From a virus, in IMG/VR virus record IMGVR_UViG_3300044858_004443, positions 1 through 52,184 of that record: DNA of 52,184 bases; one strand, 5' to 3'. Made by a program: the position numbers and the translations under genes. The notes below the pieces were generated by a model, which made no database searches, was not told the DNA's origin, and saw nothing but the letters and a program-made list of their open reading frames with translations. This document shows positions 5,375-25,900 of this stretch, piece by piece; the stretch's first letter is position 1; each line of letters starts with the position of its first letter.

Positions 5375-5392
5375 GGGCTAGAACTCATTTTC

Positions 5393-5401
5393 TGGTACAA
5401 T
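5393..5401 (+). promoter_or_regulatory. Extended -10 element (TGGTACAAT) just before a start codon
   Basis: TGGTACAAT matches the extended -10 pattern TG-N-TATAAT. The ATG of the adaptor gene follows 8 bases later with no ribosome-binding sequence between, so transcription would begin at or next to the start codon. The same nine bases occur at 7421-7429 in the same relation to a gene. There is no recognisable -35. Confidence 0.5.
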
Positions 5402-5409
5402 TGAATATT

Positions 5410-6726: not shown

Positions 6727-6995
6727 TGTTTAATATCTCAATTAAAAGTAATTTTAATAATTTAATAAATAAAGTAGATATGATACCGATCGATATGCAA
6801 TCGGCAGTCGCTGAGGGTGTCGGGGCGGCGCAATCTGATATAGAAAATGTTATCAATACAAATTATCAGAGCGTTGAAATATCTGCATCCAGCGGTGGTG
6901 CGGAAGTAAAAATTGTAAATGGCTCTGAAGATAATTCTGATGAGATTAAAAGAATTGTAATGGAAAAAATAAAAATGTCGTACAGGGGGTTGTAA
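6726..6995 (+). CDS. Small neck protein (HK97 gp10-like position)
   Basis: An 89-aa protein between the head-closure and tail-terminator genes, coupled to both by TAATG overlaps. An N-terminal helix (NFNNLINKVDMIPIDMQSAV) is followed by a short beta hairpin (VEISASSGGAEVKIVNG) and a basic helix. HK97 gp10-type neck proteins occupy this position and have this secondary structure. No diagnostic motif is visible, so the family assignment is by context. Confidence 0.45.
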   Translation: MFNISIKSNFNNLINKVDMIPIDMQSAVAEGVGAAQSDIENVINTNYQSVEISASSGGAEVKIVNGSEDNSDEIKRIVMEKIKMSYRGL

Positions 6996-7411
6996 TGACT
7001 TTGCCAATTTACGATATCAACTCTCATCTTGCACAGGATCAGGGTATTGTGACCGCTGCGGGGAAGCAAATGAATTTTTATCCTGTCGTTGCTCCATCCA
7101 GTGCAACTGCTCCTTATGTTGTTTATTATTATAATCCATTGATACCAGATCCAGATCGCCATTGGATGAGAAAAGATGTTGTTAGATATTCAATATTTGA
7201 TACAGATGTAGAAAGACTGTTTTCAGTATCTGAATTATTTATAGAAATTCTTGGCAAGGCAGATACAGTAGCCAAGACAGGTGGTATAGAGGCTACCGGG
7301 CAAGACCGTAGGATATTATCATCAATGCAAACAGATTCCAGTCTGGCTGTGCCATTAGAAAAAGAGGGTTGGTATAGGATGAATTTAGACTTTAGAATAT
7401 GTAATGTATAA
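6995..7411 (+). CDS. Putative tail terminator / tail completion protein
   Basis: A 138-aa protein. It opens with a helical segment (IYDINSHLAQDQGIV), then APYVVYYYNPLIPD and VVRYSIFDTDVERLFSVSEL, and ends with WYRMNLDFRI. This alpha-beta order, with a 'pyvvy' strand and the final 'y....df.i' strand, is that of tail terminators (lambda gpU, SPP1 gp17, DUF3168-like), which cap the finished tail tube and contact the head. Its place before the tail tube gene agrees. Confidence 0.6.
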   Translation: MTLPIYDINSHLAQDQGIVTAAGKQMNFYPVVAPSSATAPYVVYYYNPLIPDPDRHWMRKDVVRYSIFDTDVERLFSVSELFIEILGKADTVAKTGGIEATGQDRRILSSMQTDSSLAVPLEKEGWYRMNLDFRICNV

Positions 7412-7420
7412 AAAAATATA

Positions 7421-7429
7421 TGGTACAAT
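7421..7429 (+). promoter_or_regulatory. Extended -10 element (TGGTACAAT) before the 7439 gene
   Basis: This is the same nonamer as at 5393-5401. The ATG at 7439 lies 9 bases after it with no ribosome-binding sequence, so the message would be leaderless or nearly so. It could drive the small gene at 7439 and the major tail protein gene, which has its own strong ribosome-binding site. Confidence 0.5.
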
Positions 7430-7438
7430 ATATGCTGT

Positions 7439-7660
7439 ATGGAATATATTACAATTACCTATGTCGGGAGAACTCCCGGGTATGTGGCGAAAGTAGGAAG
7501 TTCCATATATGAATTCGAATGGAATAAATCTCTCGGTATTGGCAAACGCCAAGGAGAGGTAAATCCAAAAGATATTTCTAAGATCGCTAATTGGCGTGAT
7601 AAGAAAGGTCGGAAAATATTCCGGCTTGATAAAATAGGAGGAAATACAAATGGCAGTTAA
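7439..7660 (+). CDS. Small basic protein of unknown function ahead of the tail tube gene
   Basis: A 73-aa protein, not recognised. It is rich in aromatic and basic residues (VGRTPGYVAKVGSSIYEFEW, then WRDKKGRKIFRLDKI), which suggests a compact SH3-like beta barrel. It starts 9 bases after an extended -10 element without a ribosome-binding site. Its last codons overlap the start of the major tail protein by 11 bases and contain that gene's GGAGG, which suggests translational coupling. Confidence 0.55.
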   Translation: MEYITITYVGRTPGYVAKVGSSIYEFEWNKSLGIGKRQGEVNPKDISKIANWRDKKGRKIFRLDKIGGNTNGS

Positions 7661-8234
7661 TGTCGCAAATATTGTCGTTGGTGAGGCAACCATTAAGCTT
7701 GGTCCATCGGCTAACGCAACAACGATCGCTGCAATGGATAACTTCGCTGATGTCGGTGCCACACAAAATGGTGTCGAAATTTCATGGGAGCCAGACATTG
7801 TAGATATTGAGATCGACCAATTCGGTGATGCCGCAAAGTTGATTCAGTCCAAAGTTAAGGTGATGGTGAAGACCACGCTTGCTGAGGCAACATTGAACAA
7901 CCTTGCAATCGCTTGGAATTATGATGATGTCGATGGTGGTGACGACATCAAGGCAAACTTAGCAGGTTCGGGTGCAAATACAAACACCTTCCTGTTCGGT
8001 TCGCAGAACGTGTACCCACGTGAAAAGGGTCTGGTCATTGTTGGCTCAGCCCCCGGATCGTCGGCAGCAGCAATCAAGACTCGTTCCTACTACACAAAGC
8101 GTGCGGTTTCGATGGAATCATCGATGATCAGCATGAAGCGTGCAGAGGCAACGATGTTCACTGTTGGTTTCCGTATTCTCCCCAAGACAGAGGATACAAA
8201 CTACGAGTACGGCAAGATTATCGATCAGCAATAA
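7650..8234 (+). CDS. Major tail (tube) protein
   Basis: A 194-aa protein with AGGAGGAAATACAA before ATG 7650. The order of elements fits tail-tube monomers of siphoviruses: VGEATIKLGPS, GATQNGVEISWEPDIVDIEIDQFG, a central loop with DIKANLAGSGANTNTFLFGS, then KRAVSMESSMISMKRAEATMF and a final strand. It lies after the terminator gene and before the chaperone pair and tape measure. Codon choice is noticeably more GC-ending than in neighbours (GGTGACGACATCAAGGC, CGTGTACCCACGTG), as expected for the most abundant tail protein. A hairpin terminator follows. Confidence 0.8.
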   Translation: MAVNVANIVVGEATIKLGPSANATTIAAMDNFADVGATQNGVEISWEPDIVDIEIDQFGDAAKLIQSKVKVMVKTTLAEATLNNLAIAWNYDDVDGGDDIKANLAGSGANTNTFLFGSQNVYPREKGLVIVGSAPGSSAAAIKTRSYYTKRAVSMESSMISMKRAEATMFTVGFRILPKTEDTNYEYGKIIDQQ

Positions 8235-8255
8235 TTGATTGAAAAATCGTGAAGT

Positions 8256-8317
8256 AGCCCTCGCAGGCTTCTATCTTGTGATAAACTTGATGGGAGAAGC
8301 GAGGGCTTCTTTATTTT
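8256..8317 (+). terminator. Terminator-like hairpin with a long loop after the tail tube gene
   Basis: AGCCCTCGC (8256-8264) pairs perfectly with GCGAGGGCT (8299-8307); adjacent GAAG/CTTT can add pairs, and a T-rich tract (TCTTTATTTT) follows. The 34-base loop is longer than usual. It also contains GCTTCT (8267-8272), which pairs with AGAAGC (8295-8300) and so competes with the base of the main stem. It probably lowers readthrough from the abundant tail tube message into the chaperone genes. Confidence 0.65.
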
Positions 8318-8340
8318 ACAAACAAGGTAGGTAAACAGTA

Positions 8341-8643
8341 ATGAGTGATAATAAGGACATTTTGGCTGGAACTGAAATTCTTTTTGCAGATGGAAAGAAG
8401 AGAGTTATTAAGCCTTTGACAATTCGTAATCTTCGTAAGTTTATGAAGATTGTCAAGAATCTTAAGAACGATGAAACTCTTGAGGATGCAGACATTGACG
8501 TAATGGTTGAGGCAGCCGCTGTTGCATTGGCTGTCGTCGATCCAGAACTCGCAGGCGATAAGGAGAAGTTGGAGGATGTTCTTGATCTCAAGTCATTCGG
8601 CGCTCTCATGACTGCCGCAATGGGGTCCGACCCTTCCTTCTAG
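8341..8643 (+). CDS. Tail assembly chaperone (gpG-like), zero-frame product
   Basis: A 100-aa acidic helical protein (TEILFADGKKRVIKPLTIRNLRKFMKIV and on). Proteins of this size and composition between the tail tube and tape measure genes are gpG-type chaperones that coat the tape measure during tail assembly. The zero frame ends at TAG 8641-8643. The -1 frame is open across the end of the gene and continues to 8969, so a minority of ribosomes should make a longer G-T product. A weak AAGG ribosome-binding sequence lies 12 bases upstream. Confidence 0.8.
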   Translation: MSDNKDILAGTEILFADGKKRVIKPLTIRNLRKFMKIVKNLKNDETLEDADIDVMVEAAAVALAVVDPELAGDKEKLEDVLDLKSFGALMTAAMGSDPSF

Positions 8644-8969
8644 GCGAGGAGAGTGAGGTATCTTCCGACACAAGTTGGGAAGACATTCCTCTCCTCAAAT
8701 ATGAGTCTGAAATATTTATAAAAACCGGAGCTTGGAACAGCATCGGAGAGTTGGAGTCATGTCTTACTCTCAATGAGCTGTTCCTTCTCTATCGTGCAGC
8801 TGTTAATGAAACAAGTACTGCTATGAAGATTGCTGCAGCCGCTCAGGGTGCTGATGTTGATTTTGATGAAGACTGGTATAATCCTGCGCCTAAGAGAATT
8901 GTCCAAGGACTTGATATTATGCAAATGGGAATTGGTCTTGGATATGAAGTTTCTCAAAAAACTGATTGA
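8625..8969 (+). CDS. T extension of the tail chaperone, reached by -1 frameshift
   Basis: The -1 frame is open from 8586 to 8969 and has no start with a ribosome-binding site until a TTG at 8751, yet its coding sequence is clearly protein-like well before that (EESEVSSDTSWEDIPLLKYE upstream of 8751). This is the standard G/GT arrangement. The likely slip is on GGGGTCC (8622-8628), where the glycine tRNA can re-pair perfectly one base back. CCCT at 8631-8634 is a second option. A 6-bp stem-loop (TCTTCC 8661-8666 with GGAAGA 8678-8683) lies downstream. The fusion would be about 209 aa if the slip is at GGG. Confidence 0.75.
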   Translation, partial: VRPFLLGEESEVSSDTSWEDIPLLKYESEIFIKTGAWNSIGELESCLTLNELFLLYRAAVNETSTAMKIAAAAQGADVDFDEDWYNPAPKRIVQGLDIMQMGIGLGYEVSQKTD

Positions 8970-8976
8970 TAAAACC

Positions 8977-9005
8977 TTGATTTTATCGACCTAATGTGTA
9001 ATAAT
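8977..9005 (+). promoter_or_regulatory. Promoter for the tape measure gene
   Basis: TTGATT (8977-8982), a 17-base spacer and AATAAT (9000-9005) give a near-consensus vegetative promoter, the best -35/-10 pair seen in the window. Transcription would start around 9012, leaving a leader of fewer than 10 bases before ATG 9021 and no room for a ribosome-binding site. The ATG at 9010 is out of frame with the tape measure. Confidence 0.55.
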
Positions 9006-9020
9006 TAATATGGCTGAACT

Positions 9021-12000
9021 ATGTCTGATACACCAACACCGTATGGGGATATAAAATTTACTGTCACTGCAGATACGTCTGAAGCTGCGATTTTACGTCA
9101 AAGTTTAGCTCAAGTATCTGCACAAATTAATAATACTGTAAGTACAGTAAATAAGCTTGCCAGTACACAAGCGATGCTTCAAAGAATTACTGCTGGTACT
9201 GGTAATAGCACAAAAGTTTTAACTGGTTTAATTGCTGCTAATAATAAAGCGCAAGTTCTTAATAATAAAATTATTAGCGATGCTGTAAGGCATCATGCTG
9301 CTTTAACAAAAGAGATTGATAGGCTCGGAACATCATCTCCAAAAGCAACTGCGGCACTAAATGCTCAAGCCAATGCAATGCAACGCCTGACTACCAGCTC
9401 GAGAGAGCTGACAAGAGCGCTGCAGGCAACATCTATCCAACAATGGGCTAACAGGGCTAAAGGCTCGTTGACTCAAATGAACATGAGTATTCTTAGGACA
9501 ACTGCTCAAACACTTGCATTTACAAGAGCCTTAAGAACAGCGTTCTTTAGCTTTGCAGACTTAGAGCAAGAATCTGCAAGAGTTACAAAACTTATGGTTG
9601 ACAACTTTGGATCTGGAGAGGAAGCTATTAGGCTTGCTTCTGAACAAACAAAGGAATTGGGTAAACTTCTTGATCAAGTAACTAGAAAATTTGGAACAAG
9701 CAGGGTGTTGGTTCAAAGTCTAGCAGGTGACTTTGCAGAACTTGGCATAGGTGATATTCAAGGTCTTAAAGATCTTGTTGAATTAACAACTACTGTTGAG
9801 AAATTAGGTAACGTTGATATTGAACAATCACAAAGATTTGTTGAATCAATGTTGCAAAATATTTTAAGAGTTAAGAGAGAGCAGTATGCAGCAAGAGGTC
9901 TTTCGTTAGATTTAACTGACCCTAAGCAATTTAGCAATATTATTGCTGAATTAAGAGGTCAGCTTGCTGAGTTCAACTTAGTTGAAAATAAAACTTCTCT
10001 ATCACTAAAAGATCTAGCAGACGCATTCCCAGAAGTCTCGGCTGCAGCAACAACATTCGGACTGTCAATGACAGAATCCGCAGCGCTGCTCGCTCCGATG
10101 GTTGCTTCTGGTTTCCAGGTCGGCGCATCTGCTAACTCTATCAAAGTTTCATTGCAAAGAATGGTTGCAATGACAAAACAAAATTCAGTAATTCTTGGTG
10201 AGCTTAATCAAGCGCTCGGACCAGATTTTGACTACTCTGCTGGTGTAAGTATGGAAAATATTCAAAAGCTTACAGATGGTTTTAATAATCTATTAAGCAT
10301 TAAGGGCGAGCAGGGAACACTGGAGCTGTTTGCAAGATTGTTCGGCGTTCGTCAGGGACCAAGAATGGAAACATCCTTTAGGCAGTTGGCAGTATTTCAA
10401 AAAGCGCTAGGAGAAATGGGAACAACAGAAGCCAGGATTGCTGAAGTAATTCAAAAAAATGTTAATGCGAGATTAAAGTCTGCCGGGTTTGCTGAGACTG
10501 AGCAGATTCAAGTAAAAAAAATGGTGGATATCAGTAATTTACACAGAAAAGCTACTGAAAATATTAATGGTCAATATACAAAAAGAGCTAAAATAATTCG
10601 TGAGGGTCAAAAGTTAGCTTTTGATGAATTAACTAAAATTTATGGAACAACAGGTGATGAGTCTAAAGATTTCTTAAGCAAAATAGGAACTGAGTCCGGT
10701 AAGATATTGATGTCTAGTGCTTTTAGAATTGAAGACGTAGCGCAAAAGCAATTAGAGACTGAATTGCAAATTGGTCTAGATACCACTATAACAAAATTTA
10801 GAATAATGAAGGAAGAAATATTGGCGATCGGAAGAGTGATCGTAACAGCCTTCAAGCCATTGATAGAATTTTTTACACCAATAATACAAAAGATTAGAGA
10901 TTTTGTAGAAAATCTTGGACCGCTCGGTAAAAAAGCTATAAGTTTTGGTGTTATATTTTTAGGTTTGATACCATCTATAAAACTTTTGACAGTTTCATTT
11001 AGATGGTTCTTTACAGGGGCGCTGTCGAGTATTGCAAGGCTTGCAACAGGTTTTGGCAAACTTGGGTCTAGGATTATTGATGTTACCGAACTTGTTGATC
11101 GTGGAGCTGGGGCTTTAAAAAATTGGCAAAAGGCAACATCCTTGCCAGGGACAACAAAAGTTCTCTTGTCTGGAAGAAAGCGTGGTGCTATAACAGATGT
11201 ATCTGGATTGGACCCGTCAGCTCAGCAAGTATTGCAACAGGGTTCAACGCCAACATCTGCTGACCTTAAAAATATTTTTAAACGAGCCATCGGGCTTCCT
11301 GTCGGTGGTGATGCATTAACTGGATTAGATGCTGCCATAAAAGCAGTTGATGCAACTGCAGAAACTGCAGCTGATGCTGCCGATGCTGCTGCAACGACTG
11401 CTAAATCTGTTAGCGATGGAGTTAGTGAAGCATTAAAGGCTGGGTTTAAAGGAACTGTATTCACTAGCAACAGATTCATGGGGAATACATTTACTGGTGG
11501 TCCCGGAGGTGGAGGCACAGGTCGTGGACCTAGAACACCTGGGTCTCCTAGAACACCTACCGATACAAGACCAACATATGGTCCCCCAGCACCTGGTCCT
11601 GTATATGGACCAGCAATGCCGCCTCCAGATACAAGACCAACATATGGTCCATCCCTGCCTTCAGATGCAAGACCAATTTATGGTCCATCGCTACCTCCAT
11701 CTGTAACTGGCACAAGCAAGATACCAGCCGGTGGTTTTAGAGTACCAACAACTCCTGTATTGCCATCAATTCCAGGTCCTGAGCCAGTTAAAAAAGCTGC
11801 TAAAGCCGCTAAAAAAGCCGTCAAGGAAACAATAGATACTGCAGCGGCATCAGTTGCCACAGCAACTGCAACAGTCGGTGCCGCAGTTGCTGATGTTAGC
11901 TCCACAGTTGCATCTGTGGCTGCTGGGGCTGCAGAAACGGTTAGCGAGGGTGTCTCTAGTGCCGTAAGTGCTACTAAAACAGTTGCTAGTGGATCAAAAG

Positions 12001-15000
12001 TTACAAAAGCTGCAGCTCAAATGACAACACTAAAAGTTTCAGAGATAGTTTCAGTTTATGACAAACTTGGTGTTGCTTTGCCAGATGAATACCAATTCTT
12101 AAGAAGTTTAGATAAAGAATGGCAGGTAGCGACAAAAACTAAGCAGAAAGTTCTAAAAGATATAGCTGCACAAGCAAAAGGTGGTGATTTAACAAATCTT
12201 GGTGGTCCACTCGGAAGAATCGAGCGCATCGGAAAATCAGAGGTTATCTTTACATCTCCAGAATCAAAGAGATCACTAAAGCCAACTTCAAAACAAATAG
12301 CTGAACGTGCTCTTCGACCAGATGTAATGGTTCCATTTGGTCAAGATGAGATTGTTAGCGATTTATTAGAAGAAAGACTGAAGAGGGTTCCGAAGGTCGG
12401 TTCAACTATTCCTGCAAAAGCAAAGCCATTAGCTGGGGTTATTGAAAATCTTAAAATTAGAGGCAAAAAAATACAAGAAAATATAAATCAATTAGCAGAA
12501 ACTGGTATGAAAGCAGCTGAGCGTGCGGCGGCTCAGGCTGATAGTGTTCTTAAATATGGTGCTACTGAAACAAAATTGTTAGCTGATGAATTTAAAGGTT
12601 TAACACTAACTCCTAAAGATACTGCAGCAGGGGTGATTGAAGTTGAAAGAGAAGTTAGGGTTCTTAGCGAGTATGAAAAAGCAGTTGAAGAGGCAAGAAT
12701 TGCACAAAAAGAATTTGAAGATCTTACATCGTCTGCATCACAGCAGGATGTGCAAAGATTGGCAAATAAAGCAAAAGCAACTAGAGAAAAAGTTGTCAAG
12801 CTTGAAAAGACAAAAAGGAATGTTGTTCGAACAGCAACAAAATTTGATATAGTACCAGCAGCTCCGGTATCTCAAGAGCTGCAAAATTTTAGAGATATAA
12901 CATCAAGAAAACTACAGCTCTTAGGACCACAAAGAACTCTTTTGCCAAAAGGTGTTAACACACAAGAGCAAGTTAGTAAAGCTCTAGCAAGTGCCGTTGC
13001 TCAAGAAAAGATTTTGCTCCCGAAGGGTGGTATTAATCAAAACTTAAAATTAATAGCTGGATATAGAGCTTTAATGGTTGAGAAAATTGAAGCTATAAAT
13101 AAAGCAATTGACAGTGGCGATGATGTGATTGTTAAAAATCTTAAACAAATCGGTTATAAGAGTAAGCAAGAAATTGCAAAAATGACTAGTAAAACATCTA
13201 AAACTCAGGCTGCAGCTCAGAATCGTGAATTGATAAGAAAACTCGCAGCAAAGTCTGTCCGTCTAGATGAGCTAGATCCAGAGTCGCCAGCTTATGATCC
13301 TAATGCTGGGCGTAGATTATTTACAAAAGGCATGGCTGATAAAGTTGCAAACGAGAGGATTGTGCAACAATCTGATAGTCAAATATTAAATAGAATATCT
13401 CCAACAACAGATAAAGCTAAAGCTAGTATAATTGCAGAAAGAAATGCTGCAAGAACAAGAAATGCTGCAAAAGAAGCGGATATATTGAATAAAACAATTA
13501 ATCAGATGACTTCTGATTACACTGTTGAAGCGCAGCAGTCTAGATCTAAAGCAGTTACAGCGTTTAAGAAAACACGTAACGCACTAATAAAGAAATTTGG
13601 AAGCATTGAGGCTGCAGAGGTAGCATTAAGTAATGCTGTAAATGCAGAGCTTGCAGTTCAAAAAGGAGCTCTTTCTGCACCAACTGCTGCTGTAAAGAAA
13701 ACGGTTTCAAGAACAACGTCAATAGTTGCATCCGGAACTGCGGCAGTTAAAGAAACAGTTGATACTGTAGCAAGAACTGCAAGCAGTGTCCCATTCATAT
13801 TGAAAGATTCATTGGGTGGGTTCAGAATGTTCCATTCAGCCGCCTCTGAAGCAGTCTCATCTTCAGTCGTTGCATCTACTAAGACAATTGGATCTGAGAT
13901 AAGCAGGTTGCTCGATGATGTAATAGTAAGAGCACTTCCGGCTGGATTTGATCCAGCAAAAGCTAAAGTCATGCGTTCTGTCATTGCAGAGGTATTGGCA
14001 AAGACACCAATAACAGCAGCAAGTGCGGCAACTCCGGCAGCTCAAAGTTTTATGTCCCATGTTCTTGGCGGCATGGGTGATGATATTGCAAGGGTTATAA
14101 ATTCACTTGCGCCAGATATTACTTCGGCAATATCTGCCGGTGGCATATCAGCAAAAGGTGGAATTGTGCAAACAGCAAAGGCAAGAGCTGTTGGTTCCTT
14201 TAATAAATTGAAATCATTAACTACTGCAAAAATTCTTGGTGATCTAGGAATGCTTAGAACTGGTATTGAGGCGGCAGTGTTTGATGCCGTAGCCGCTGCT
14301 GGCTATGCAATTGAGAGTACAACAAGTTCTATTGGTGAAGCTATTAGGGCTGGTACATATACGGAAGCAATGATCCCAGGGTATTTAGATGAATTGACCG
14401 CAAAGAGAGAAAAGAGGAGCGCTAGGGCGGTAGAGAGTGGGTCTGCTGGTGCTGCGGCTGCTGCTGAGGCTAGAGGTGAGCCGATATCGAGAGGAGAAAA
14501 GAATGCTGCTAGAAGAAGAAAAAGGGCTCTAGAGAGGCTTGTTAAGGAAGGCAGAGCGCCAGATCTTGAGGCAGCCGGCAGTCTTTATGATAAGGCTCTC
14601 GCAGGTGGAAAAGAAGAGCTAGACAAATTATTGCCAAAAACAAAAGCTAGCGTCGGTTCGGCGGTTAAGGAGGCGGTTGGTGATGCTGCTGAGGCTGCAA
14701 AGGAAACAGCATCTGAGGCTGTCGAAGCTGTTGGAGAAAAACTAGACGAAGCTGTTAAAACAGTTAGCGATGCTACAACTGGCGCAATAGATGATGCTAC
14801 TAAAGCTGTAAAAGATAAAGTTCGTGCACCATCGACAAAAGGGATGAAAGTCGAGGATATGGGGCGTGCTGAGCTTGTAAGGGAGAAAGGGAGATTGCAA
14901 AGTGCTATTAAGAAAGCACCTTTGGATATCTCTGTTCTTGATGAGGAGATAACAAAGAAGAAAGCCCTCATTGATGCTATGGATCCAGCGTCCAAGGGGC

Positions 15001-18000
15001 TTAAGACGAATGCAAGAATTATTGCTGAACATACAGCGTTGGTAGAGAAGAGAAATGCATTAAGTGCTAAGCTTGCTTCATCTGAAGCAAGGCTTACTGA
15101 GGTTAATAAGCGACTTGCTGAGACAAAGACCGCCGAGGCAGCATCTTCAAAGAAAGCAAAGCCAGCAGCTGCCGCAGCAGCAGCTGGTGCCGCACCAACT
15201 GGAGCCCCAAGAGCTCCAAGAATACCAACTGCTGCTGCGCCAGCCGCATCCGTTGCCGCTGTGACGAGCTCAGCAGTTGTTGAAAAACTTGATGAAGTTA
15301 TTATTGAATTCGATCGGTCCCTTGCAAACTTTTTTAAGGGACCAAACTTCTTTCAGGGACCAAACTATTTTGCTGGTCCAATAACAGCAATGCCCAATGC
15401 AAAATTTAAAGATGTAAAGAAGAGATTTTCTGATTTAACTGACGATGAAAAAAAGAAGGTATTGTCTGGTCATACTAAGAGAGCTGATGAAGCTAAGGCA
15501 AGAATTTTAGCAAGAAAAGCTGGCGCTACTGGTGCAGGCACGGTTGATGATGCTGCCGCAGCGGCAAGTGGTGCTACTGCTGCTACTGCCGCAAAGGCTG
15601 GGTTGTTGAGGAAATCTTTGTCCGGTCTTGGTGGATTGATGGGGAGCGGGTTGGTTCGTGGTGCACAAATTGGTAAAGCTGCACTGCAGGGGATGTTTGG
15701 AATAGTTGGCAAGTCTGCATCAGAGTTCTGGAAGATGAGTGCTGCATTTATCAATATGTATACAACCGCAATCAGCAGTGCATCATCAAGCTCAAGGCTT
15801 GCATCCATTTCTGCAATGATTGGGGCAAAAGCAATTGCAGTTGTTGGTAAAGCTGCAGCTATTACGGATAAAGCTATAAAGAAATTAGCAGGATCGTTCT
15901 TGGCTCTTGGGAGAACAATTGCCACAACAACAAATGCTGAATTGACAAGATTCTTTGCTTCGCTTCAAAAGAGTAAAATATTAAAGGCTTGGGGTTTCTT
16001 ATTATTTACCGGAATGTTGCCCTTGATCAAGGGTTTTAAAGTGCTGACAATTGGTGCAGTTAAATTCATTACAACAATGAAATTTAGCGCTCTCATTGGT
16101 GGATTTCAGCAATTATATCAGACGGTTTTAAGGACTGCATTAAGTTTCGCTGCTCTAGCTATTAAGCTAAATGCAGCAATGCTAATGATTGCGCCAATAT
16201 TGATACTGGTGTTTTCGATTATATCAAAAGTTAAAAGAGGCATCTCAGGTCTGTCGCCAGCTATGGACAATTTTAAAGCTGCTTGGGTGGCAATAAAAGA
16301 TGCGATATATATACTTGCTGCTCCTTTGGAAAATCTTATTGCTTCATTTGGCGGTATTGGGGCTCAAGGCGATTCGGTTAAAAGAACCGCAGGTGTAATT
16401 TGGTTGATATCTAAAGGTGTAAGGGCTGCTGCTGAAGCATTCCAAAGATTCGCTGCCGGTCCTGGTCTTAAATATATGAAGAGTGCTGTTGTTCCAATTA
16501 TAACAAGAATTGTTAATAGATTTATACTTCTTGGAAGAGCGATAAGTGCCGCATTTGGTGGTCGAAGCGGAGAGGCGGCAAAGAATTTTAAAGGCTTCTT
16601 ATACTCAATGCTTTATGAAGCAGTTGCATTTATTGGTAAATTTATAAGCTTAATAGCATCTGCACTAGAAATGTTTGCACCAACATTGGCTAAGATAATT
16701 GATGCCATTGTTGCTGCAACTATCACAGCATTTAGAAAAATTATGAATTTTGCAAAAGAAGTAATGCTGCTTCTAGGATCAATTATAACAGTTATTGGTG
16801 GAATATCTGGTCAAATTGGCATTGCCCTTGGTGGTGCAGCAATTGTTGCTGGTGGTGTTGGCATCGGACTTCTTGATATCAAATTAAAGGAATTTGAGGA
16901 AAGCGCTAAGAGTGGTGGCTTAGGGGCTGGGAAGGCAATTGCAAATGGAATTACTAGTGGTGCAAAAAAAGCTGCTCGTGGTATGGAGACTCTTAAAACT
17001 TTAGTTGGTGAAAAATATGGTGATTTGATGGGTGTCGGTATAAACACTGCTCTTGCTTCAAGAATTGCAAAAGACATGCCAAAAGATGTTAAGAATAAAA
17101 TTATAAGGTCTGCCGATGATGCAAGAGCTGGTGGAGAATCGCTCGGGCAAGAAATTGCAAAGGGCATTAAGAAAGGTCTAACAGATCTCAAATCAGAATT
17201 TACAGATAAGTTTTTTGGAAAAGCTGATTCTGAAATTGATAAATTTGTAGAGAAATTAAAAGATGGTTTAAATGAACAGAAAGATAAAGCGCTAGAGGCA
17301 TTTGATAATCAAATAGAAGCTATTGAAGCTCTTGGTGAAGCAGAAGAAAGGCTTACTGCGACTGTTGAATACGAAGAAAAGCGTCGTGAGATGATACGAG
17401 AGCGTGCTCTTGATAGAGAAAATTATTTGCGTGAAAGAAAAGTCGCTGCGTATGAGGGAAGGGCTGAAGATGTAAGGTCATTAGACCTTACATTTAGAAA
17501 GAGTAGTGTGGAGAAAGATAAGGAGATTAAAGACTTTGATCTAGATAGAGTTAAGACTCTCCAGGCTCAAAATAGAGAGGATGCTGTCAAAGTAATTAAT
17601 AAACAAAAAGAGCAATTGATCAAAGAATATGACAAGATGTTTAAAGACTTTGATCAAAGAATTGAAGACATAAAGGTTCGTGGATTTAGTAATGAACAAG
17701 AGTTTGTGCAAATGTTTGGCAATTTACAAAACGCTGCATCGGTATTTTCTGACGATCTCTCTTCAACTTTCATGAAAGCTATGGAAAGTCTTCCAAATGC
17801 AATAAGAGAATCAACAGATCCATCTATTGGAATGTTTAGTACATCAATGGATAAAATGGTTCAAGAAGCAAAGAGAACTTTCGGTATTGGAGTAACTAGT
17901 GCAAGTTCAGAATCAATACTTGGAGCTGCTTATTTCCTTGCTAAGGGAATGCCGGGTGCGTTTAGACAAGCATTTGATTCAGGTATTGTTTCACAATTTG

Positions 18001-21000
18001 TTACGCCATTCTCAACAAAAGTTAAGAATGAATTAAATAATACCGTCCCGGCTAATTTGTGGGTTAAGTCTGCTGGTGTTGCAATGGTTGAAATGGTTAA
18101 TGAAATGAAAAGAAAACTTGTTAGCCTCAAGGGAACTTTGTATGATGATTTTAAGAAATTGTTCTCTGAAATACCCGTAGCAGATTTAAGTACAATATTT
18201 GGTGACATGTTTAAAGATCTCGATTCAGAGGCTCTTAAGGATTATTTTGCCAACCTTTTCCCAACAGCAGAAGAATTAAAGGCAAAAATTATAACAATTG
18301 AAACAGTTCGATCCAAAGACGGATCTGGCGGTGGAGAAGCGCCAAAAGCTTCGCCCGGTTTTACTCCATCAGAGTTAGGACCAACTGACGTAGATTACTC
18401 AAAATATAAAGATTATGTTGAAAGAATGGCTGAGTTGAGAGAAAAGGCGGCAGAGCCTGCGCAGTCTGAAAAGCAGGATCCAAAACAAAGCTTCTTTGGC
18501 AAATTTAAAGATATTATTGTTGGCATAGCTGATTATCTTGGTCCAGTTAAAACAGCCATCCTGGGGGCGCTTGGAGTTGTTGCTGGCGCTGGTGCTGCAA
18601 TACCAATATGGACTGGAATAAAAGTTGCTGCTGTCGCAATTGGAACAGCAGTTGGTGGATTACCAATATTAATAGGAACAGTGATTGGTGTATTAATATA
18701 CTTGTACGCTAGATTTAAATCCGTAAGAGATATTGTAAATGGTATAGCTATGGAAATACGGGATGGTCTTGTTGCTGCATTTAATTTCCTAAAAGATATT
18801 GGAGTTAAAGCATTTGATGAAATTAAAATTGCATTTTCAAAACTATGGGATGGCTTTACTGGGGTTGCTTTGCCAAAAATTGGTGAAATTTGGAATGGTT
18901 TTATAATTGGTTTTACAATTGCATTTGATTGGCTAAAAGAACAAATTGGTAGAAGGGTATCTGTTTTAATTGATATTATTAAAGCTCTTATTGATCCATT
19001 AAAAGATTATTGGAAAACTTTCTTTAAAGCTAGTTTTGATTTAATTAAAAGTTATTTTGAAAATGTTTCGAATATAATTGTAGAATTATTTGCAACATTA
19101 AAAGTAATATTTGAACCAATAATTAAAATTATTGTTGGTGTATTTATTATAATAACTGAAGCTATTACAATTCTTTGGGAAAAATTAAAAACGCCAATAA
19201 TAACTATTGCAACATTTATTATTAAAACATTTACATTTTTACTTCCAATATTTTCTAGCATAGGTAGTTTTATATTTGATGTAATTGGTGGTGCAATAGT
19301 TGGTCTTCTTAAAATTATAAAATTTGTTTTTGAGGGATTGTATAAATCAATTGGCACAGTTGTTAATGTTGCAGTTGGTATAGCAAAAGCAATATTTAAT
19401 GTGTTGAATGCAATCTGGACAAACCCTGTTGTGAAGTGGATCAGGGACTTCTTATTCAGAGTCTTGATGCTTGGAATTTTTATAGTTGCAAGCTTGCTGG
19501 AAGCATTTGCAAAAACAATATTTAATGCATTTAAAACAGTATTTAATATATTTAAAAATATTGCAACATTTATATATAACACACTCAAGCCAGGGCTTGA
19601 ATTAATTTGGAATGTTGTTAAATTTGTTTTTACACCTGTTATATCAATAATAAAAGTAGTAATAGATATAGTTAAATCGCTGTATGATGAATTTGGGTTT
19701 CTCGGTCTAGCGTTAACCCCATTTCTTGCTGTTTTGGAATTGATAAGACGTATTTTTATGATTGTTTGGAATGTTGCTAAGTCTGTATTTAAAGGCATAT
19801 ACTCATTAATTGAAAGTGCAATTGTAATTATAAAAATTGTTGCAAGTGCTATATGGGACGGTTTAGGAAAAGTTTGGGGATTAATCTCACCAATTGTTAA
19901 TGCTTTCTGGGATGGTATAACAACAGCAGCAGGGTTTGTTTGGGATTTACTAAAGACAATGGGTAGTAGTATTTTGGATGTTCTTGGATCAGTATGGGAT
20001 GTAATAGGATCTGTCGCTACAAAATTCTGGGATGGCATAAAGATTGCTGCACAAACAGTTTGGGATTTCCTTAAGACAGTTGGAACAGGTATTTGGAATG
20101 CAATAGGATGGGTCTGGGATATGATTGCTGCAGCATCACAAAAATTCTGGGATCTTATTGTTGCAGGTTGGGGATTGGTCGGTCCAATTTTTGAACAATT
20201 ATGGGAATGGTTATGGAATGGTATTAATTATGCCTGGGATACATTAAAACAAACCTTGCAATTCTACTGGGATCTTTTCAAGGAGATGTGGGGTTGGGTT
20301 GAGCCAGTCCTGTCTCAGTTATGGGAGTGGTTGTGGAATGGTATTAAGTGGGCGTGGGATCAGTTGGTAGAGGTTGTGCAGTTCTATTGGGATTTGTTTA
20401 AGCAAATGTGGGGTTGGATTGAGCCTGTTTTAAGTCAATTATGGGATTGGCTATGGACAGGTATTAAGTTTGCTTGGGATAAGATAACAGATGCAGTCCA
20501 GTTTATGTGGGAAGGCGTAAAGGTTATGTGGTCGTGGATTCAGCCTGTACTGAATACTCTCTGGGATCTGTTATGGAATGGCATTAAGCTTGCATGGGAT
20601 GGAATTACAACTGCAGTTCAATTTGTTTGGGACAAGATAAAGGCAATGTGGGATGCAGTTTACCCTATTCTTAAAACAATGTTGGAGTGGATAAAAGATA
20701 AGATTGGTGCTGCTGTTGATGGTGTTAAGGGTGCATGGAATGGTCTGAAAGATGCGGTTAGCAATACATTTAATTGGTTTAAAGATAAATTCTCAAGTAT
20801 TGGTGGTTTTATAAGAGAAGGTATTGGTGGGGCAGTTGATTGGGTGTCTGATAAATTAGGGAATATTCCTAATTTATTCAAAGGGGCATTAAATGCAATA
20901 ATTAGAGGAGTAAATAATGTAACTGGATTTTCATTTACAATGCCAGATTGGTTGAAGTATGTTCCAGGGCTGGGCGGTGTAGCTGGCAAGACATATAGCT

Positions 21001-21512
21001 TTAGAGATGTCATTCCTGAGCTGCCGCAAGTTAAATACAATGGTGGAAAAATTGGCTCTTACATGAAGGGCGGTATGGCATATGGCTCTTACATGAAGGG
21101 CGGTATGGCATATGGATACGGCGGGATGACAGCAGGGTTCGCACAGCAGGCTGTGCCGGCAATTCTGCATGGCGGTGAATATATAATTAATCACAAAGCT
21201 GCGCAGAGAATTGGAACAGACACTCTTGATGCATTAAACAATTTGCGCTTGTCAAAGCCAAGATACCCAAGAATGCCATCGATTCCAGGCATTTCAATGC
21301 CAAATGTTAGAATCGATAATTCTACACAAGCTCCTGTTGGATCTTCAACATCAAATGTTAATATTTATGTTGATAACTTTATTGGCGAGCCAGAATGGTT
21401 TAATTCAATGATGAAAGATTATAATATGAAAGTTGCTCCAAGAAATCAAAAAGCAGCCGGTTTGGAAAATAGAGTGATAACAACCTACAATGGTCTTAAT
21501 AGAGGCATGTAA
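9021..21512 (+). CDS. Tape measure protein, exceptionally long (4163 aa)
   Basis: The uninterrupted frame of 12.5 kb encodes the tail-length ruler and DNA-ejection protein. A TP901-type tape measure domain spans about residues 170-460 (ADLEQESARVTKLM, GFQVGASANSIKVSLQRMVA). Pro/Gly-rich RPTYGP repeats lie near residues 850-895, long Ala-rich helices follow, and an FKGPNFFQGPNYFAGP repeat lies near 2100. A charged coiled-coil spans about 2730-2890 and hydrophobic helices 3170-3235. Tryptophan-rich 40-residue repeats span 3714-3894, and the C-terminal QQAVPAILHGGEYIINHKAA is typical of tape measures. At about 1.5 angstrom per residue the tail would be near 600 nm, less if the flexible parts are not extended. 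The gene follows the chaperone pair as expected. Confidence 0.95.
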   Translation: MSDTPTPYGDIKFTVTADTSEAAILRQSLAQVSAQINNTVSTVNKLASTQAMLQRITAGTGNSTKVLTGLIAANNKAQVLNNKIISDAVRHHAALTKEIDRLGTSSPKATAALNAQANAMQRLTTSSRELTRALQATSIQQWANRAKGSLTQMNMSILRTTAQTLAFTRALRTAFFSFADLEQESARVTKLMVDNFGSGEEAIRLASEQTKELGKLLDQVTRKFGTSRVLVQSLAGDFAELGIGDIQGLKDLVELTTTVEKLGNVDIEQSQRFVESMLQNILRVKREQYAARGLSLDLTDPKQFSNIIAELRGQLAEFNLVENKTSLSLKDLADAFPEVSAAATTFGLSMTESAALLAPMVASGFQVGASANSIKVSLQRMVAMTKQNSVILGELNQALGPDFDYSAGVSMENIQKLTDGFNNLLSIKGEQGTLELFARLFGVRQGPRMETSFRQLAVFQKALGEMGTTEARIAEVIQKNVNARLKSAGFAETEQIQVKKMVDISNLHRKATENINGQYTKRAKIIREGQKLAFDELTKIYGTTGDESKDFLSKIGTESGKILMSSAFRIEDVAQKQLETELQIGLDTTITKFRIMKEEILAIGRVIVTAFKPLIEFFTPIIQKIRDFVENLGPLGKKAISFGVIFLGLIPSIKLLTVSFRWFFTGALSSIARLATGFGKLGSRIIDVTELVDRGAGALKNWQKATSLPGTTKVLLSGRKRGAITDVSGLDPSAQQVLQQGSTPTSADLKNIFKRAIGLPVGGDALTGLDAAIKAVDATAETAADAADAAATTAKSVSDGVSEALKAGFKGTVFTSNRFMGNTFTGGPGGGGTGRGPRTPGSPRTPTDTRPTYGPPAPGPVYGPAMPPPDTRPTYGPSLPSDARPIYGPSLPPSVTGTSKIPAGGFRVPTTPVLPSIPGPEPVKKAAKAAKKAVKETIDTAAASVATATATVGAAVADVSSTVASVAAGAAETVSEGVSSAVSATKTVASGSKVTKAAAQMTTLKVSEIVSVYDKLGVALPDEYQFLRSLDKEWQVATKTKQKVLKDIAAQAKGGDLTNLGGPLGRIERIGKSEVIFTSPESKRSLKPTSKQIAERALRPDVMVPFGQDEIVSDLLEERLKRVPKVGSTIPAKAKPLAGVIENLKIRGKKIQENINQLAETGMKAAERAAAQADSVLKYGATETKLLADEFKGLTLTPKDTAAGVIEVEREVRVLSEYEKAVEEARIAQKEFEDLTSSASQQDVQRLANKAKATREKVVKLEKTKRNVVRTATKFDIVPAAPVSQELQNFRDITSRKLQLLGPQRTLLPKGVNTQEQVSKALASAVAQEKILLPKGGINQNLKLIAGYRALMVEKIEAINKAIDSGDDVIVKNLKQIGYKSKQEIAKMTSKTSKTQAAAQNRELIRKLAAKSVRLDELDPESPAYDPNAGRRLFTKGMADKVANERIVQQSDSQILNRISPTTDKAKASIIAERNAARTRNAAKEADILNKTINQMTSDYTVEAQQSRSKAVTAFKKTRNALIKKFGSIEAAEVALSNAVNAELAVQKGALSAPTAAVKKTVSRTTSIVASGTAAVKETVDTVARTASSVPFILKDSLGGFRMFHSAASEAVSSSVVASTKTIGSEISRLLDDVIVRALPAGFDPAKAKVMRSVIAEVLAKTPITAASAATPAAQSFMSHVLGGMGDDIARVINSLAPDITSAISAGGISAKGGIVQTAKARAVGSFNKLKSLTTAKILGDLGMLRTGIEAAVFDAVAAAGYAIESTTSSIGEAIRAGTYTEAMIPGYLDELTAKREKRSARAVESGSAGAAAAAEARGEPISRGEKNAARRRKRALERLVKEGRAPDLEAAGSLYDKALAGGKEELDKLLPKTKASVGSAVKEAVGDAAEAAKETASEAVEAVGEKLDEAVKTVSDATTGAIDDATKAVKDKVRAPSTKGMKVEDMGRAELVREKGRLQSAIKKAPLDISVLDEEITKKKALIDAMDPASKGLKTNARIIAEHTALVEKRNALSAKLASSEARLTEVNKRLAETKTAEAASSKKAKPAAAAAAAGAAPTGAPRAPRIPTAAAPAASVAAVTSSAVVEKLDEVIIEFDRSLANFFKGPNFFQGPNYFAGPITAMPNAKFKDVKKRFSDLTDDEKKKVLSGHTKRADEAKARILARKAGATGAGTVDDAAAAASGATAATAAKAGLLRKSLSGLGGLMGSGLVRGAQIGKAALQGMFGIVGKSASEFWKMSAAFINMYTTAISSASSSSRLASISAMIGAKAIAVVGKAAAITDKAIKKLAGSFLALGRTIATTTNAELTRFFASLQKSKILKAWGFLLFTGMLPLIKGFKVLTIGAVKFITTMKFSALIGGFQQLYQTVLRTALSFAALAIKLNAAMLMIAPILILVFSIISKVKRGISGLSPAMDNFKAAWVAIKDAIYILAAPLENLIASFGGIGAQGDSVKRTAGVIWLISKGVRAAAEAFQRFAAGPGLKYMKSAVVPIITRIVNRFILLGRAISAAFGGRSGEAAKNFKGFLYSMLYEAVAFIGKFISLIASALEMFAPTLAKIIDAIVAATITAFRKIMNFAKEVMLLLGSIITVIGGISGQIGIALGGAAIVAGGVGIGLLDIKLKEFEESAKSGGLGAGKAIANGITSGAKKAARGMETLKTLVGEKYGDLMGVGINTALASRIAKDMPKDVKNKIIRSADDARAGGESLGQEIAKGIKKGLTDLKSEFTDKFFGKADSEIDKFVEKLKDGLNEQKDKALEAFDNQIEAIEALGEAEERLTATVEYEEKRREMIRERALDRENYLRERKVAAYEGRAEDVRSLDLTFRKSSVEKDKEIKDFDLDRVKTLQAQNREDAVKVINKQKEQLIKEYDKMFKDFDQRIEDIKVRGFSNEQEFVQMFGNLQNAASVFSDDLSSTFMKAMESLPNAIRESTDPSIGMFSTSMDKMVQEAKRTFGIGVTSASSESILGAAYFLAKGMPGAFRQAFDSGIVSQFVTPFSTKVKNELNNTVPANLWVKSAGVAMVEMVNEMKRKLVSLKGTLYDDFKKLFSEIPVADLSTIFGDMFKDLDSEALKDYFANLFPTAEELKAKIITIETVRSKDGSGGGEAPKASPGFTPSELGPTDVDYSKYKDYVERMAELREKAAEPAQSEKQDPKQSFFGKFKDIIVGIADYLGPVKTAILGALGVVAGAGAAIPIWTGIKVAAVAIGTAVGGLPILIGTVIGVLIYLYARFKSVRDIVNGIAMEIRDGLVAAFNFLKDIGVKAFDEIKIAFSKLWDGFTGVALPKIGEIWNGFIIGFTIAFDWLKEQIGRRVSVLIDIIKALIDPLKDYWKTFFKASFDLIKSYFENVSNIIVELFATLKVIFEPIIKIIVGVFIIITEAITILWEKLKTPIITIATFIIKTFTFLLPIFSSIGSFIFDVIGGAIVGLLKIIKFVFEGLYKSIGTVVNVAVGIAKAIFNVLNAIWTNPVVKWIRDFLFRVLMLGIFIVASLLEAFAKTIFNAFKTVFNIFKNIATFIYNTLKPGLELIWNVVKFVFTPVISIIKVVIDIVKSLYDEFGFLGLALTPFLAVLELIRRIFMIVWNVAKSVFKGIYSLIESAIVIIKIVASAIWDGLGKVWGLISPIVNAFWDGITTAAGFVWDLLKTMGSSILDVLGSVWDVIGSVATKFWDGIKIAAQTVWDFLKTVGTGIWNAIGWVWDMIAAASQKFWDLIVAGWGLVGPIFEQLWEWLWNGINYAWDTLKQTLQFYWDLFKEMWGWVEPVLSQLWEWLWNGIKWAWDQLVEVVQFYWDLFKQMWGWIEPVLSQLWDWLWTGIKFAWDKITDAVQFMWEGVKVMWSWIQPVLNTLWDLLWNGIKLAWDGITTAVQFVWDKIKAMWDAVYPILKTMLEWIKDKIGAAVDGVKGAWNGLKDAVSNTFNWFKDKFSSIGGFIREGIGGAVDWVSDKLGNIPNLFKGALNAIIRGVNNVTGFSFTMPDWLKYVPGLGGVAGKTYSFRDVIPELPQVKYNGGKIGSYMKGGMAYGSYMKGGMAYGYGGMTAGFAQQAVPAILHGGEYIINHKAAQRIGTDTLDALNNLRLSKPRYPRMPSIPGISMPNVRIDNSTQAPVGSSTSNVNIYVDNFIGEPEWFNSMMKDYNMKVAPRNQKAAGLENRVITTYNGLNRGM
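20161..20700 (+). repeat. 120-base tandem repeats encoding Trp-rich 40-aa units in the tape measure
   Basis: Four consecutive units start at 20161, 20281, 20401 and 20521, with a partial fifth from 20641; the spacing is exactly 120 bases. Each encodes a variant of MWGW-EPVLSQLWEWLWNGI followed by K-AWD-L---VQFYWDLFK. Tryptophans recur at roughly 11-residue intervals, the pattern by which tape measures pack in the tail tube. DNA identity is high but not complete, so these are established duplications and not an assembly artefact. Confidence 0.9.
21054..21113 (+). repeat. Exact 30-base tandem duplication near the tape measure C-terminus
   Basis: Bases 21054-21083 and 21084-21113 are identical and encode GSYMKGGMAY twice, followed by GYGG. 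Absence of any difference, even at third positions, points to a very recent duplication, or to an assembly artefact. Confidence 0.95.
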
Positions 21513-21908: not shown

Positions 21909-22979
21909 ATGGAGCTTGGATTCTATTCATTTTCTGAACCATTTAAGCAAGGAATAGATTTTTATACTGTTGATGAAGCAACAACAATACAGGCTTCACT
22001 GTCAGGTGACGCTACACTATCAGTTAATTTTACAATGCAAATACGATCCTCAACAAGTGTTGAGAGTAATGCTTCAATAACTGCAACAAAAATTGCATAT
22101 GCTCAATCTTCTATAGTGATTGATGGCGTTACCTTAACGCTTGGAACAGGAATAAAGCCAGCTGCTGTTTTGATTGAAAATTCCTCATCAATGACAGTAT
22201 CTGCTCAAAAAATCGCTTTTGCTGCGGTGTCGATTACTTCAGCATCAAATCTTTCTGCCTCAGCACAAGAAATATTAAATGCTACAGTATCTATTGCATC
22301 ATCCTCAAATGCAAATGCAACTATAATTAAACAAGCATTTGCAAGTGTATTGATAAACTCTACTTCTAATGTTTCAGCTCAATCAAAACTTATAAAGAAT
22401 ATAAGTGCTTCATTAAATGGAAATATAAATCTAACTGTTGCTGGTGATTTAGTATTAATCACAATAAGAATAGTTATAAATAATTTAGGTAGCGTTGCTG
22501 CCCAGGCAATTAAATTCTCTAATACATCTATATCTTCAGGCTCTCCATTAGATATTGGCGGGATAAGGACATTCTTGTTATTAGATGATAAACCATTAAC
22601 AAATCACAACAGGAAGTTTGATGTTTCTGTGGAGCCGATCTTTACAGAAAATGTTAATTGGAATAATAGAAAATCTAGATATTATAAATCTACATCGAGA
22701 GGTGCAAGAAAGACTTTTAATTTATCATGGTCATATGTTCCAAATACGCAAACTCACACTGTGGATGGTAAAAGAGGGCGTGATTATATAAGAGAGATAG
22801 CTGGAAAGCCTCAATACCACGTTTTAAAAGTTATAAATTTAGATGAAAATGGCAACACTCCACCTACAGAAACAAGTTATAATGTATTAGTGAAAGATTA
22901 TAGCGAGACTCTGGTGAGAAGGGATATATCTGAAGAGGTGTATTTTTGGGATTGCTCTATAAGTCTAGAAGAGGTTTAA
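21909..22979 (+). CDS. Distal-tail-like minor tail protein with repeated N-terminal domain
   Basis: A 356-aa protein. The C-terminal part (about residues 225-356) is the paralogue of the preceding 131-aa protein (HNRKFDVSVEP, KTFNLSWSYVPNTQTHTVDG, KDYSETLVRRDISE). The N-terminal 200 residues are Ser/Ala/Asn-rich with about four imperfect repeats of roughly 27 aa (SAQKIAFAAVSITSASNLSA and similar), suggesting a beta-solenoid or repeated beta arm. It may be an evolved distal-tail protein with an added arm for sugar binding. The gene ends directly at the hub gene start (TAA then ATG). Confidence 0.6.
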   Translation: MELGFYSFSEPFKQGIDFYTVDEATTIQASLSGDATLSVNFTMQIRSSTSVESNASITATKIAYAQSSIVIDGVTLTLGTGIKPAAVLIENSSSMTVSAQKIAFAAVSITSASNLSASAQEILNATVSIASSSNANATIIKQAFASVLINSTSNVSAQSKLIKNISASLNGNINLTVAGDLVLITIRIVINNLGSVAAQAIKFSNTSISSGSPLDIGGIRTFLLLDDKPLTNHNRKFDVSVEPIFTENVNWNNRKSRYYKSTSRGARKTFNLSWSYVPNTQTHTVDGKRGRDYIREIAGKPQYHVLKVINLDENGNTPPTETSYNVLVKDYSETLVRRDISEEVYFWDCSISLEEV

Positions 22980-25900
22980 ATGCTTACTAAAGGTAGATAC
23001 GATGTAGATATATCATCATCTTTCAATAACGCTATATCTTCAATATCACAAAGAGTAAAACCTCTCATTTTAATAGACTGGCTAGATAGTCGTCATATTA
23101 ATAAATCCGGCAATACGGAAATAGCATCAAGCAACTACACCAATTCTGCAAAAACAAATCAAAATATAATAGATAATGCAGCTGGGCTACTTGCTTCCGG
23201 CAGATCTTTATCGGATAAAGAAATTTTATTTAATAAATCAAGAAATAGAGATTTTTATTTTATACCAAATGAATCTGTTAACGGAATAGAAAGGCAGTCA
23301 TTTACATGGGCTGTTTGCGATGCTAAAGATACAAATGGAAATGTTATTACTGCTAATGGTCAATGGCATTGTATGCCAACAACAAAAGATGAGCATTACG
23401 AGTTTGGATATGAGTCGTCAGTTAAGAGTACAGCAAATACTCATGCAACATTAAATGGTTACGAATTGCAATCTCCGGTTGTCCTGACATATGTGTTTGA
23501 AGAAAGAAAAGTAAATTTAATAAAAATTATAACATCTGAATATAATGGTCAAATTTGTGCTTACAATATAAAAGCATATCATAATACAAATACTATTGTT
23601 TACAATCAAGATGGTGAGATTCCTATTGATTCATATTATTTTAATCATTATTTAGAATCAATTACAAATGATAATATTAATAAAATTTTATTAACAGTTT
23701 ATACAACAAAAAATCCAAATGATTATGTAAGAGTTAATGAAGTTGCTCCAATGTATAGGGTTGATATAACTGATTACATTATAAATTTTAATGTTTCTAA
23801 AGTTCGTGATGTGCACGAAACAAGTTTGCCAATTGCCGGTGGTGGTAGTAATACTGCATCATTGACACTAGATAACGCAAATAAAGATTTTAATTTGTTT
23901 AACTCAGCATCTCTATATGGAAAGTATATGAAAAAAGATTTACGCTGCTTTGTGTATGCAGGATGGGAGAGGGAGTCATACGATAGTGATCAAATTATTA
24001 CATCATTATCTTCAAATATTACAGCAGTAAGTAACACGATAAATGTCTTTAATATTAATGACTTCCCATCCGGGGGTTCCGGAGATGACTATGTTATCAC
24101 CATCAATCCAGGAAATATCAATCAAGAAAAAGTATTGGCAAGAAAGGGCTCTGGTAATTCTTTTTCTGCAATAGCAAGAGGTATCGGGGATACAAAGGCA
24201 AGAAGTCATAATACTGGCGCATCTGTCGTATACGATATATTTGAGTATGTTCCATTTGGAACATTTTATATTGATGAATGGCAGGCTACATCTTCCAGCA
24301 TGACTGTTTCTGCAAATTTAACTGGATGGTCTAAGTTTGGTCAAGATAAAGTGATAACTAAAGGATTTTTGCTTCAAGAAACAACAGTGGCGGAAGCTGT
24401 AGAGCACTTGCTATTAATGACAAATTTTCCTAGAAAAGATATAGATTATTTAATTAATCCTGATAAGTTTTATTTAAAAAACAATTCAGTTATGCATCTC
24501 AATTTTAATGAAAAAAATGTAGATAGATCAAATAATGCTCGAACAGCTTCTTCATCACTTAGGGCTAGATTGTATGCAGTCCCGGAGGGTGGTAATGCAC
24601 GTGATATTAGATTAGATGTTTTAGATAAATACCTTTCTACATATGAAAAAGCACTAGATATAAGGACATCAGTTGCTCCATCAAAAGTAACGGCATCAAA
24701 AGAGATATCAGATCAATCAGGGGAGAGCAAAGCTGTGAATTGGGTGTCGGGTCAATTTATTGCTAATGATGGAAGCACTGTTGATAGTTTTTTCAATGGT
24801 GTTTTTGATGGTTACTATATACCATCAAATACTGGAAATCAACGATTAATAGCCGGCATAAATAAAGGCGGGATCAGGGTTTATTTAAATGATGTAAAAA
24901 TTATAGATGAATGGAGATTTGTTGATTCTGGCACCAATACACCAGAATCTTTTTCTTCTGATTTATATGATTTAACAGCAGGTAAAGTCTATTCTCTAAG
25001 GATAGAGTTTTTTGCAGAGCATAAAATACAAAATGAGCCTTTTAAGATTTTTCTTAAGAAAGAATACGATTCATATTTAGATTGGGTATACAGTCATGAA
25101 TGTTATACAATGGTTGCTAATGATAGTTATGGGAATAGAACTTCAGATTCATATCTAACATTCTCTGCTAATAGCTGGACACCAACTGCTAATGTAAATG
25201 TCATAGAGAGATCCGGTCGGCAAAATAACGGTATTTTATTAGCTAACGTTAAAATATCAGAACAATCTGGTATTGTTTCTGATCTGGATAGTCGATCTGT
25301 ATTGCTTGAATCAAATGCTTATATAAGAATTCCTTATCATCAATCATTTGATATTTTTAATTCTAATAGTATTTCATATACTGGAGATTTTACTATTGAG
25401 ATTTATGCAAAAATGCACAATGGTGCATTCTCTGCAAATGGTGAATATATAAGTTGTTTTAACAATTCCTCTCCATCTAATGGTTTTGAATTTTATTCAA
25501 ACTCTTCATCTAATGGTTTTAAAATGGTTACTTCAAATGGTGTGCAAACAGTATCATCAAATATTGCACTATCAAATAACAGTTTTAGTTTAATAACAGC
25601 TACATATTCAGATAATACTCTTAAGTATTTTATCAATGGTGATTTAAAAAATACTGTTACAACAACTGGAACACTTGTTCCATTTTCTAATAAAGATATC
25701 ACTATTGGCGGCAGAGGTGCTTCCTTTACAGCAGAAACAGAAATTGACTTTGCTATAGAAAATGCTCCAATTACAATTAGATCTTTTTATATAGATGAGT
25801 TTGCAATTTCAAATATAAAATTTGATGATGAGATGGTTAAAGATAGTTATGTTCAAACGCAAATGCAACCAATTCAAGTTATGCCTTTTATATATGGCAA

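Follow-up and report, generated by a model that had tools for sequence, protein, structure and literature searches.

A single gene takes up almost a quarter of the window, by which we mean the whole stretch of DNA analysed here, an IMG/VR record of 52,184 bases. This raises the question whether its product of 4163 residues is a genuine tape measure protein (TMP) and, if so, how long a tail it would set. The record is classed as 'linear', and the window is therefore probably a fragment; the records of several relatives are 79-109 kb long. We argue here that the gene encodes the TMP of a long-tailed, non-contractile (siphovirus-type) phage and that, because nearly the whole chain would act as ruler, the predicted tail measures about 0.62-0.71 micrometre. 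We give this reading a probability of roughly 85%.

The open frame and its product

The frame (9021-21512 (+)) begins with ATG and runs through 4163 codons to one stop, with zero internal stops. It covers 12,492 of 52,184 bases (23.9%), exactly the single uninterrupted 12.5 kb gene of the preliminary description. An open frame of this length is far beyond chance. As the window is a metagenomic contig, at least two genes might have been wrongly fused into one frame during assembly. When viral contigs were scanned with residues 1-703, 33 loci came up, four of them 100% identical over that stretch; in three of these (L035, L036 and L037) the complete gene is a single frame of 4169 codons, while in the fourth the contig ends within the gene. 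The 4169-residue proteins are 97% identical to the window TMP. With 12 base differences between L035 and L036 and 69 between L035 and L037, these loci are not copies of one assembly. Equally long single frames occur in more diverged relatives. Compared with the relative L038, dN/dS is 0.27 overall and 0.09-0.65 across every segment, ratios that are rough, since almost every segment has a dS of about 1 or higher, but that point to purifying selection along the whole frame. Since independent records carry the same uninterrupted frame, the earlier doubt about an assembly join is answered. The artefact is refuted to a high degree, and we consider its probability close to nil.

Judged by homology, the product is a genuine and intact phage TMP. 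The Pfam family PhageMin_Tail (PF10145) matches residues 319-442 above the cut-off (E 4e-9), and 13 PHROG tape-measure families match the N- and C-terminal parts, among them phrog_5448 at residues 21-487 (E 9e-17) and phrog_58 in the C-terminal half (E 1.8e-47). In phmmer, residues 3412-3956 match the solved TMP of 80-alpha (6v8i/9mu2, E 4.9e-6). A tube protein and an overlapping chaperone pair lie upstream of the gene and distal tail genes downstream (Table 1). The long helical chain has hydrophobic segments and aromatic residues at regular intervals, although the helical models are of low confidence. Together with the repeats described below, these matches at both ends and the gene order bear out the earlier naming of the protein as a tape measure. 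A profile match to the designed coiled coil 8qae was set aside as coiled-coil composition, and a match to the lysis-labelled phrog_971 was rejected as well: it covers the Trp-rich helices and the C-terminal end, a region in which we see no enzyme domain. By Pfam, the window TMP contains no enzyme cargo.

Table 1. Features of the tail gene region, in window positions
Feature	Position	Strand	Basis
Major tail (tube) protein, 194 aa	7650..8234	+	37% identical to the major tail protein of StarPlatinum, E 1.7e-39; phrog_885/476 weak
Tail assembly chaperone (G-like), 100 aa	8341..8643	+	35% identical to the tail assembly chaperone gp59 of StarPlatinum, E 5.7e-9
Second chaperone frame (T-like), overlapping in -1 frame	8586..8969	+	Open frame; overlap in relatives
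Probable -1 slippery site GGGGTCC	8622..8628	+	Conserved surroundings (within 8586-8645)
Tape measure protein gene, 4163 aa	9021..21512	+	Open frame, Pfam, PHROG, phmmer
Conserved N-terminal block, residues 1-760, PhageMin_Tail at 319-442	9021..11300	+	Identity, dN/dS, Pfam, periodicity
Fast-evolving middle, residues 761-2090	11301..15290	+	Composition, identity, dN/dS, model
Conserved central blocks, residues 2090-2160, 2295-2550, 2650-3060	15291..18200	+	BLAST blocks, dN/dS, hydropathy
Hydrophobic then Trp-rich amphipathic helical ruler, residues 3061-3960	18201..20900	+	Helix periodicity, model
Tandem 40-residue units, about 6-7 copies, residues 3617-3896, Trp/Phe spaced 11-11-18	19869..20708	+	Self identity, TRF, pattern
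Conserved C-terminal block, residues 3961-4163, end motif AILHGGEY at 4047-4054	20901..21509	+	Identity, dN/dS, motif
Distal tail protein adjoining the TMP, 131 aa	21512..21907	+	26% over 130 aa to StarPlatinum gp62, E 3e-10

Anatomy of the chain and predicted tail length

The N-terminal block is 38-79% identical to relatives, with a dN/dS of 0.13 against L038 and a heptad-like hydrophobic period of 3.5. In the middle, a Pro/Gly-rich linker (residues about 850-925) is followed by an Ala/Lys/Glu-rich segment with almost no Trp, which is probably mostly helical. The middle holds no known domain, and its identity to diverged relatives falls to 20-36% with a dN/dS of 0.37-0.65. The AlphaFold model of residues 905-2090 is almost all helix (mean pLDDT 41) and that of residues 3060-4163 a near-continuous helix (mean pLDDT 30); at such low confidence both lend weak support only. 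Conserved central blocks, found by BLAST to be common to diverged relatives (dN/dS 0.12-0.17), lie in a region that also has membrane-like helices and, at residues 2688-2924, a charged stretch free of Pro. In the helical ruler that follows, the hydrophobic period is 3.63-3.66 at very high power, and in the Trp-rich array it is 3.63-3.64 (40/11) and extremely strong. The 40-residue units there have an offset-40 self identity of 44% and a TRF period of 120 bp. Their [FW]-11-11-18 pattern, at 7 positions in the region, arose in 1 of 1000 shuffles of that region, and its spacing is a published TMP unit (pattern 2; PMC3271669). The last 120 or so residues are 53-80% identical in the relatives compared, and dN/dS of the C-terminal block is 0.09. 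The TMPs with 11/18-residue Trp/Phe units, that of Lactococcus phage TP901-1 among them, resemble the window TMP in the 11-11-18 spacing, the hydrophobic regions and the conserved ends, but TP901-1 is much shorter, with a 118 nm tail. Set against L035, the window shows a synonymous difference of 0.069 in the Trp-repeat region (19821-20900), several times the 0.004-0.019 of the rest of the gene, as if the repeats recombine.

The Pro/Gly-rich linker and membrane-like helices (by hydropathy residues 600-660, 2260-2620 and 3176-3618) had been noticed before and are present. For the further suggestion that they are ejection or fusion modules rather than ruler we find no positive evidence and no enzymatic domain, and published deletions speak against it. 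In TP901-1, removal of part of the hydrophobic region shortens the tail (PMC5099701), and in TM4 loss of a 114-residue peptidoglycan-hydrolase motif within the chain shortens it by 20 nm, about what the residue count predicts (PMC1796659). Hydrophobic helices and embedded cargo therefore need not be left out of the ruler; TP901-1 and TM4 say that residues inside the chain would be counted towards length whatever else they do.

A different division of the chain is conceivable, in which the protein is still a TMP but its middle 1330 residues are excised or packed to the side, and the tail measures some 0.4-0.5 micrometre. The middle is indeed the least conserved part, and it lacks any match to the TMP profiles that flank it on the N- and C-terminal sides. 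However, its size is similar in relatives of the window type, it is under purifying selection, helix periodicity extends through much of it, and residues of other kinds inside the chains of TM4 and TP901-1 add length (PMC1796659, PMC5099701). Without residues 761-2090, 2833 residues would be left, giving about 475 nm. We consider this division improbable. Proteolytic trimming of TMPs occurs in other phages and would count against reading the full chain as ruler here.

The length itself is a prediction from the gene by way of published calibrations. In TM4 a TMP of 1229 residues goes with a 200 nm tail and the mutant lacking 114 residues with 180 nm (PMC1796659); Katyusha has a 9,084 bp TMP gene (3027 aa) and a 500 nm tail (PMC4919401), Hotorobo a gene of 9,984 bp (3327 aa) and 540 nm (PMC4982279). 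The tail of P74-26, whose TMP gp95 has 5006 residues by the gene length in its record, is given as over 800 nm to 'nearly 1 um' (PMC9022992, PMC10034513), and the deletion series in TP901-1 yields 1.53 angstrom for each residue once about 127 residues are left out of the count (PMC5099701). By the TP901-1 rule, 4163 residues correspond to 617 nm, while single ratios give 665-688 nm with P74-26 taken at 800 nm and 832 nm with P74-26 at 1000 nm. A linear fit, for which the P74-26 tail was set at the literature value of 875 nm, gives 709 nm. Hence the earlier figure of about 620 nm stands as a prediction, at the low end of the 617-709 nm calibrations.

Neighbouring genes and proposed assembly

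The two chaperone frames overlap in the -1 frame in the window and in nine of nine relatives inspected, which is the usual G/GT arrangement. The 30 bases around GGGGTCC are identical in the relatives L005, L006, L008 and L020, where the whole chaperone gene is 82-86% identical; this heptamer is the probable -1 frameshift site of the pair. Downstream of the TMP gene, the 131-residue protein has its counterpart in StarPlatinum gp62, likewise of 131 residues and annotated as a minor tail protein. The protein of the next gene (21909-22979) also resembles gp62 in its C-terminal third (residues 230-356), and by this similarity the two share a duplicated distal-tail domain. It is followed by a gene (22980-26996) for a tail protein of 1338 residues, probably a carbohydrate-binding receptor protein, in which PA14 and Laminin_G_3 (concanavalin-like) domains are found.

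As TMPs are also found in myovirus-type tails, the ruler might belong to a contractile tail. However, the tube protein and G/GT chaperone pair upstream of the TMP are arranged as in StarPlatinum, and no sheath protein occurs among the neighbours scanned, albeit in a fragment whose sheath gene could lie elsewhere. A contractile tail is thus very unlikely.

From what is observed, namely the gene, its homology, neighbours, repeats and conservation, we infer frameshifting, assembly order, length and ejection role of a non-contractile tail as follows. The chaperone pair, made via -1 ribosomal frameshifting, would coat the hydrophobic, Trp-rich helices of the ruler, and the conserved C-terminal end of the TMP would join the tail tip complex. 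Rings of the tube protein may then be added along the ruler, extended and mostly helical, up to its N-terminal end, where a terminator would cap the tube. With nearly the whole chain as ruler, some 155-180 rings, each taking up about 4 nm, would make up the tail. During infection the ruler would exit the tube, and passage of DNA across the membrane may be aided by its hydrophobic helices.

Known phages, an uncultured clade and the host

Among known phages, StarPlatinum (Streptomyces; Stanwilliamsviridae, Karimacvirus) has the same order of tube protein, chaperone, TMP and 131-residue distal protein, so that the tail modules are syntenic at 26-37% identity, as far as the fragment reaches. Its TMP gp61 has a homologous N-terminal domain (28% over 222 aa, E 1e-11). 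In contrast to the window TMP, gp61 is half as long (2102 aa) and, by eye, carries a putative M23-like peptidoglycan-hydrolase cargo in its C-terminal part. Very long rulers with measured, very long tails are known from the Gordonia phages Hotorobo, Monty and Woes (Hotorobo 3327 aa, about 540 nm) and Katyusha/Benczkowski14 (3027 aa, about 500 nm), which also have a joined chaperone gene upstream of a TMP that is, however, shorter than 4163 residues. Similarity to the TMP of Hotorobo (Montyvirus) is weak and does not extend beyond the Trp-rich helices (20% over 534 aa, E 6e-8), and the first 2926 residues of the Hotorobo TMP have no similarity to the N-terminal block. Thermus phage P74-26, with the longest reported tail, shares a giant TMP on the same residue-to-length scale but differs by an annotated peptidase domain in gp95; sequence similarity to phages of the P23-45/P74-26 type (Oshimavirus) is unconvincing, with the best match in a low-information helical repeat (E 0.001). 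The preliminary description had seen few precedents, such as the P23-45 type: the Thermus giants hold as such, but Gordonia phages have tails of 500-540 nm too (PMC4919401, PMC4982279).

The closest company is an uncultured clade, on which we found no paper in the open-licence literature. In twelve diverged relatives, whose N-terminal blocks are about 38-79% identical to that of the window TMP, the gene is complete as one frame, with lengths of 4144, 4214, 4269, 4375, 4398, 4409, 4479, 4514, 4587, 4647, 5358 and 6438 residues. A wider alignment search added frames mostly of 3.0-4.5 thousand residues and, in the most diverged, about 2050, counted from stop to stop and in some cases cut by contig ends. 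Since the frame lengths of relatives bracket it, 4163 residues is a middle value in this clade, where rulers of 4-6 thousand residues are, judged by these frames, the norm. The predicted tail is thus long by textbook standards and ordinary for its own clade.

Two build plans occur. That of the window (also in L035, L038, L040-L043 and L046) has C-terminal Trp-repeat helices with 40-residue self-similarity over 4-10 units and one LHGGEY motif at the end. The other (L039, L044, L045, L047, L048 and L049) lacks the 40-residue Trp units; LHGGEY stands at residues 3044-3362 (4139 in L039) and is followed by about 1000-2200 residues and another LHGGEY. In this extra part, L048 (TMP at 791-14551 (+)) has a transglycosylase-like domain after the first LHGGEY (E 1.8e-7) and L047 (556-13992 (+)) a similar one below the cut-off, hence in these two, by domain similarity, cargo modules sit between copies of the ruler end motif. 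L039 and L045 contain HExxH sequences in the extra part, in which no Pfam family scores above the cut-off; in L039 a zinc-peptidase-like HELMH lies between its LHGGEY motifs, three in all. The L045 TMP is the single frame of 5358 residues, and that of L039 (128-19441 (-), IMGVR_UViG_3300020193_000009), at 6438 residues, exceeds the 5006 of P74-26. As a search for a second record of its extra C-terminal part found none, the L039 frame rests on one contig. It is a tentative idea, which we hold to be rather doubtful, that no other viruses have TMPs as long as those of this clade, nor perhaps tails as long, and that domain-bearing insertions between repeats of the end motif supply the extra residues. 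Should embedded cargo add to the ruler as it does in TM4, the L039 tail would reach about 1 micrometre and also deliver several enzymes. Very long tails are known from few isolates, and a clade with rulers of 4000-6400 residues, lengthened by 40-residue Trp repeats in some members and by cargo modules between end-motif copies in others, allows a test of tail-length evolution and a clear one of whether enzyme domains inside the chain contribute to ruler length.

An N-terminal alignment against 84,980 bacterial and archaeal genomes yielded no relative, and the relatedness to Streptomyces phages gives no more than a hint of an actinobacterial host. The window also encodes a DnaE-type DNA polymerase III alpha of the bacterial kind (36513-39938), 38% identical to those of Streptomyces phages. 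Among the replication genes lie three glycosyltransferase genes of GT2 and GT1/GT4 types (39907-40629, 42402-43625 and 46993-48087) and a cytidylyltransferase-like gene (40626-41138), which perhaps serve glycosylation of DNA or of a surface.
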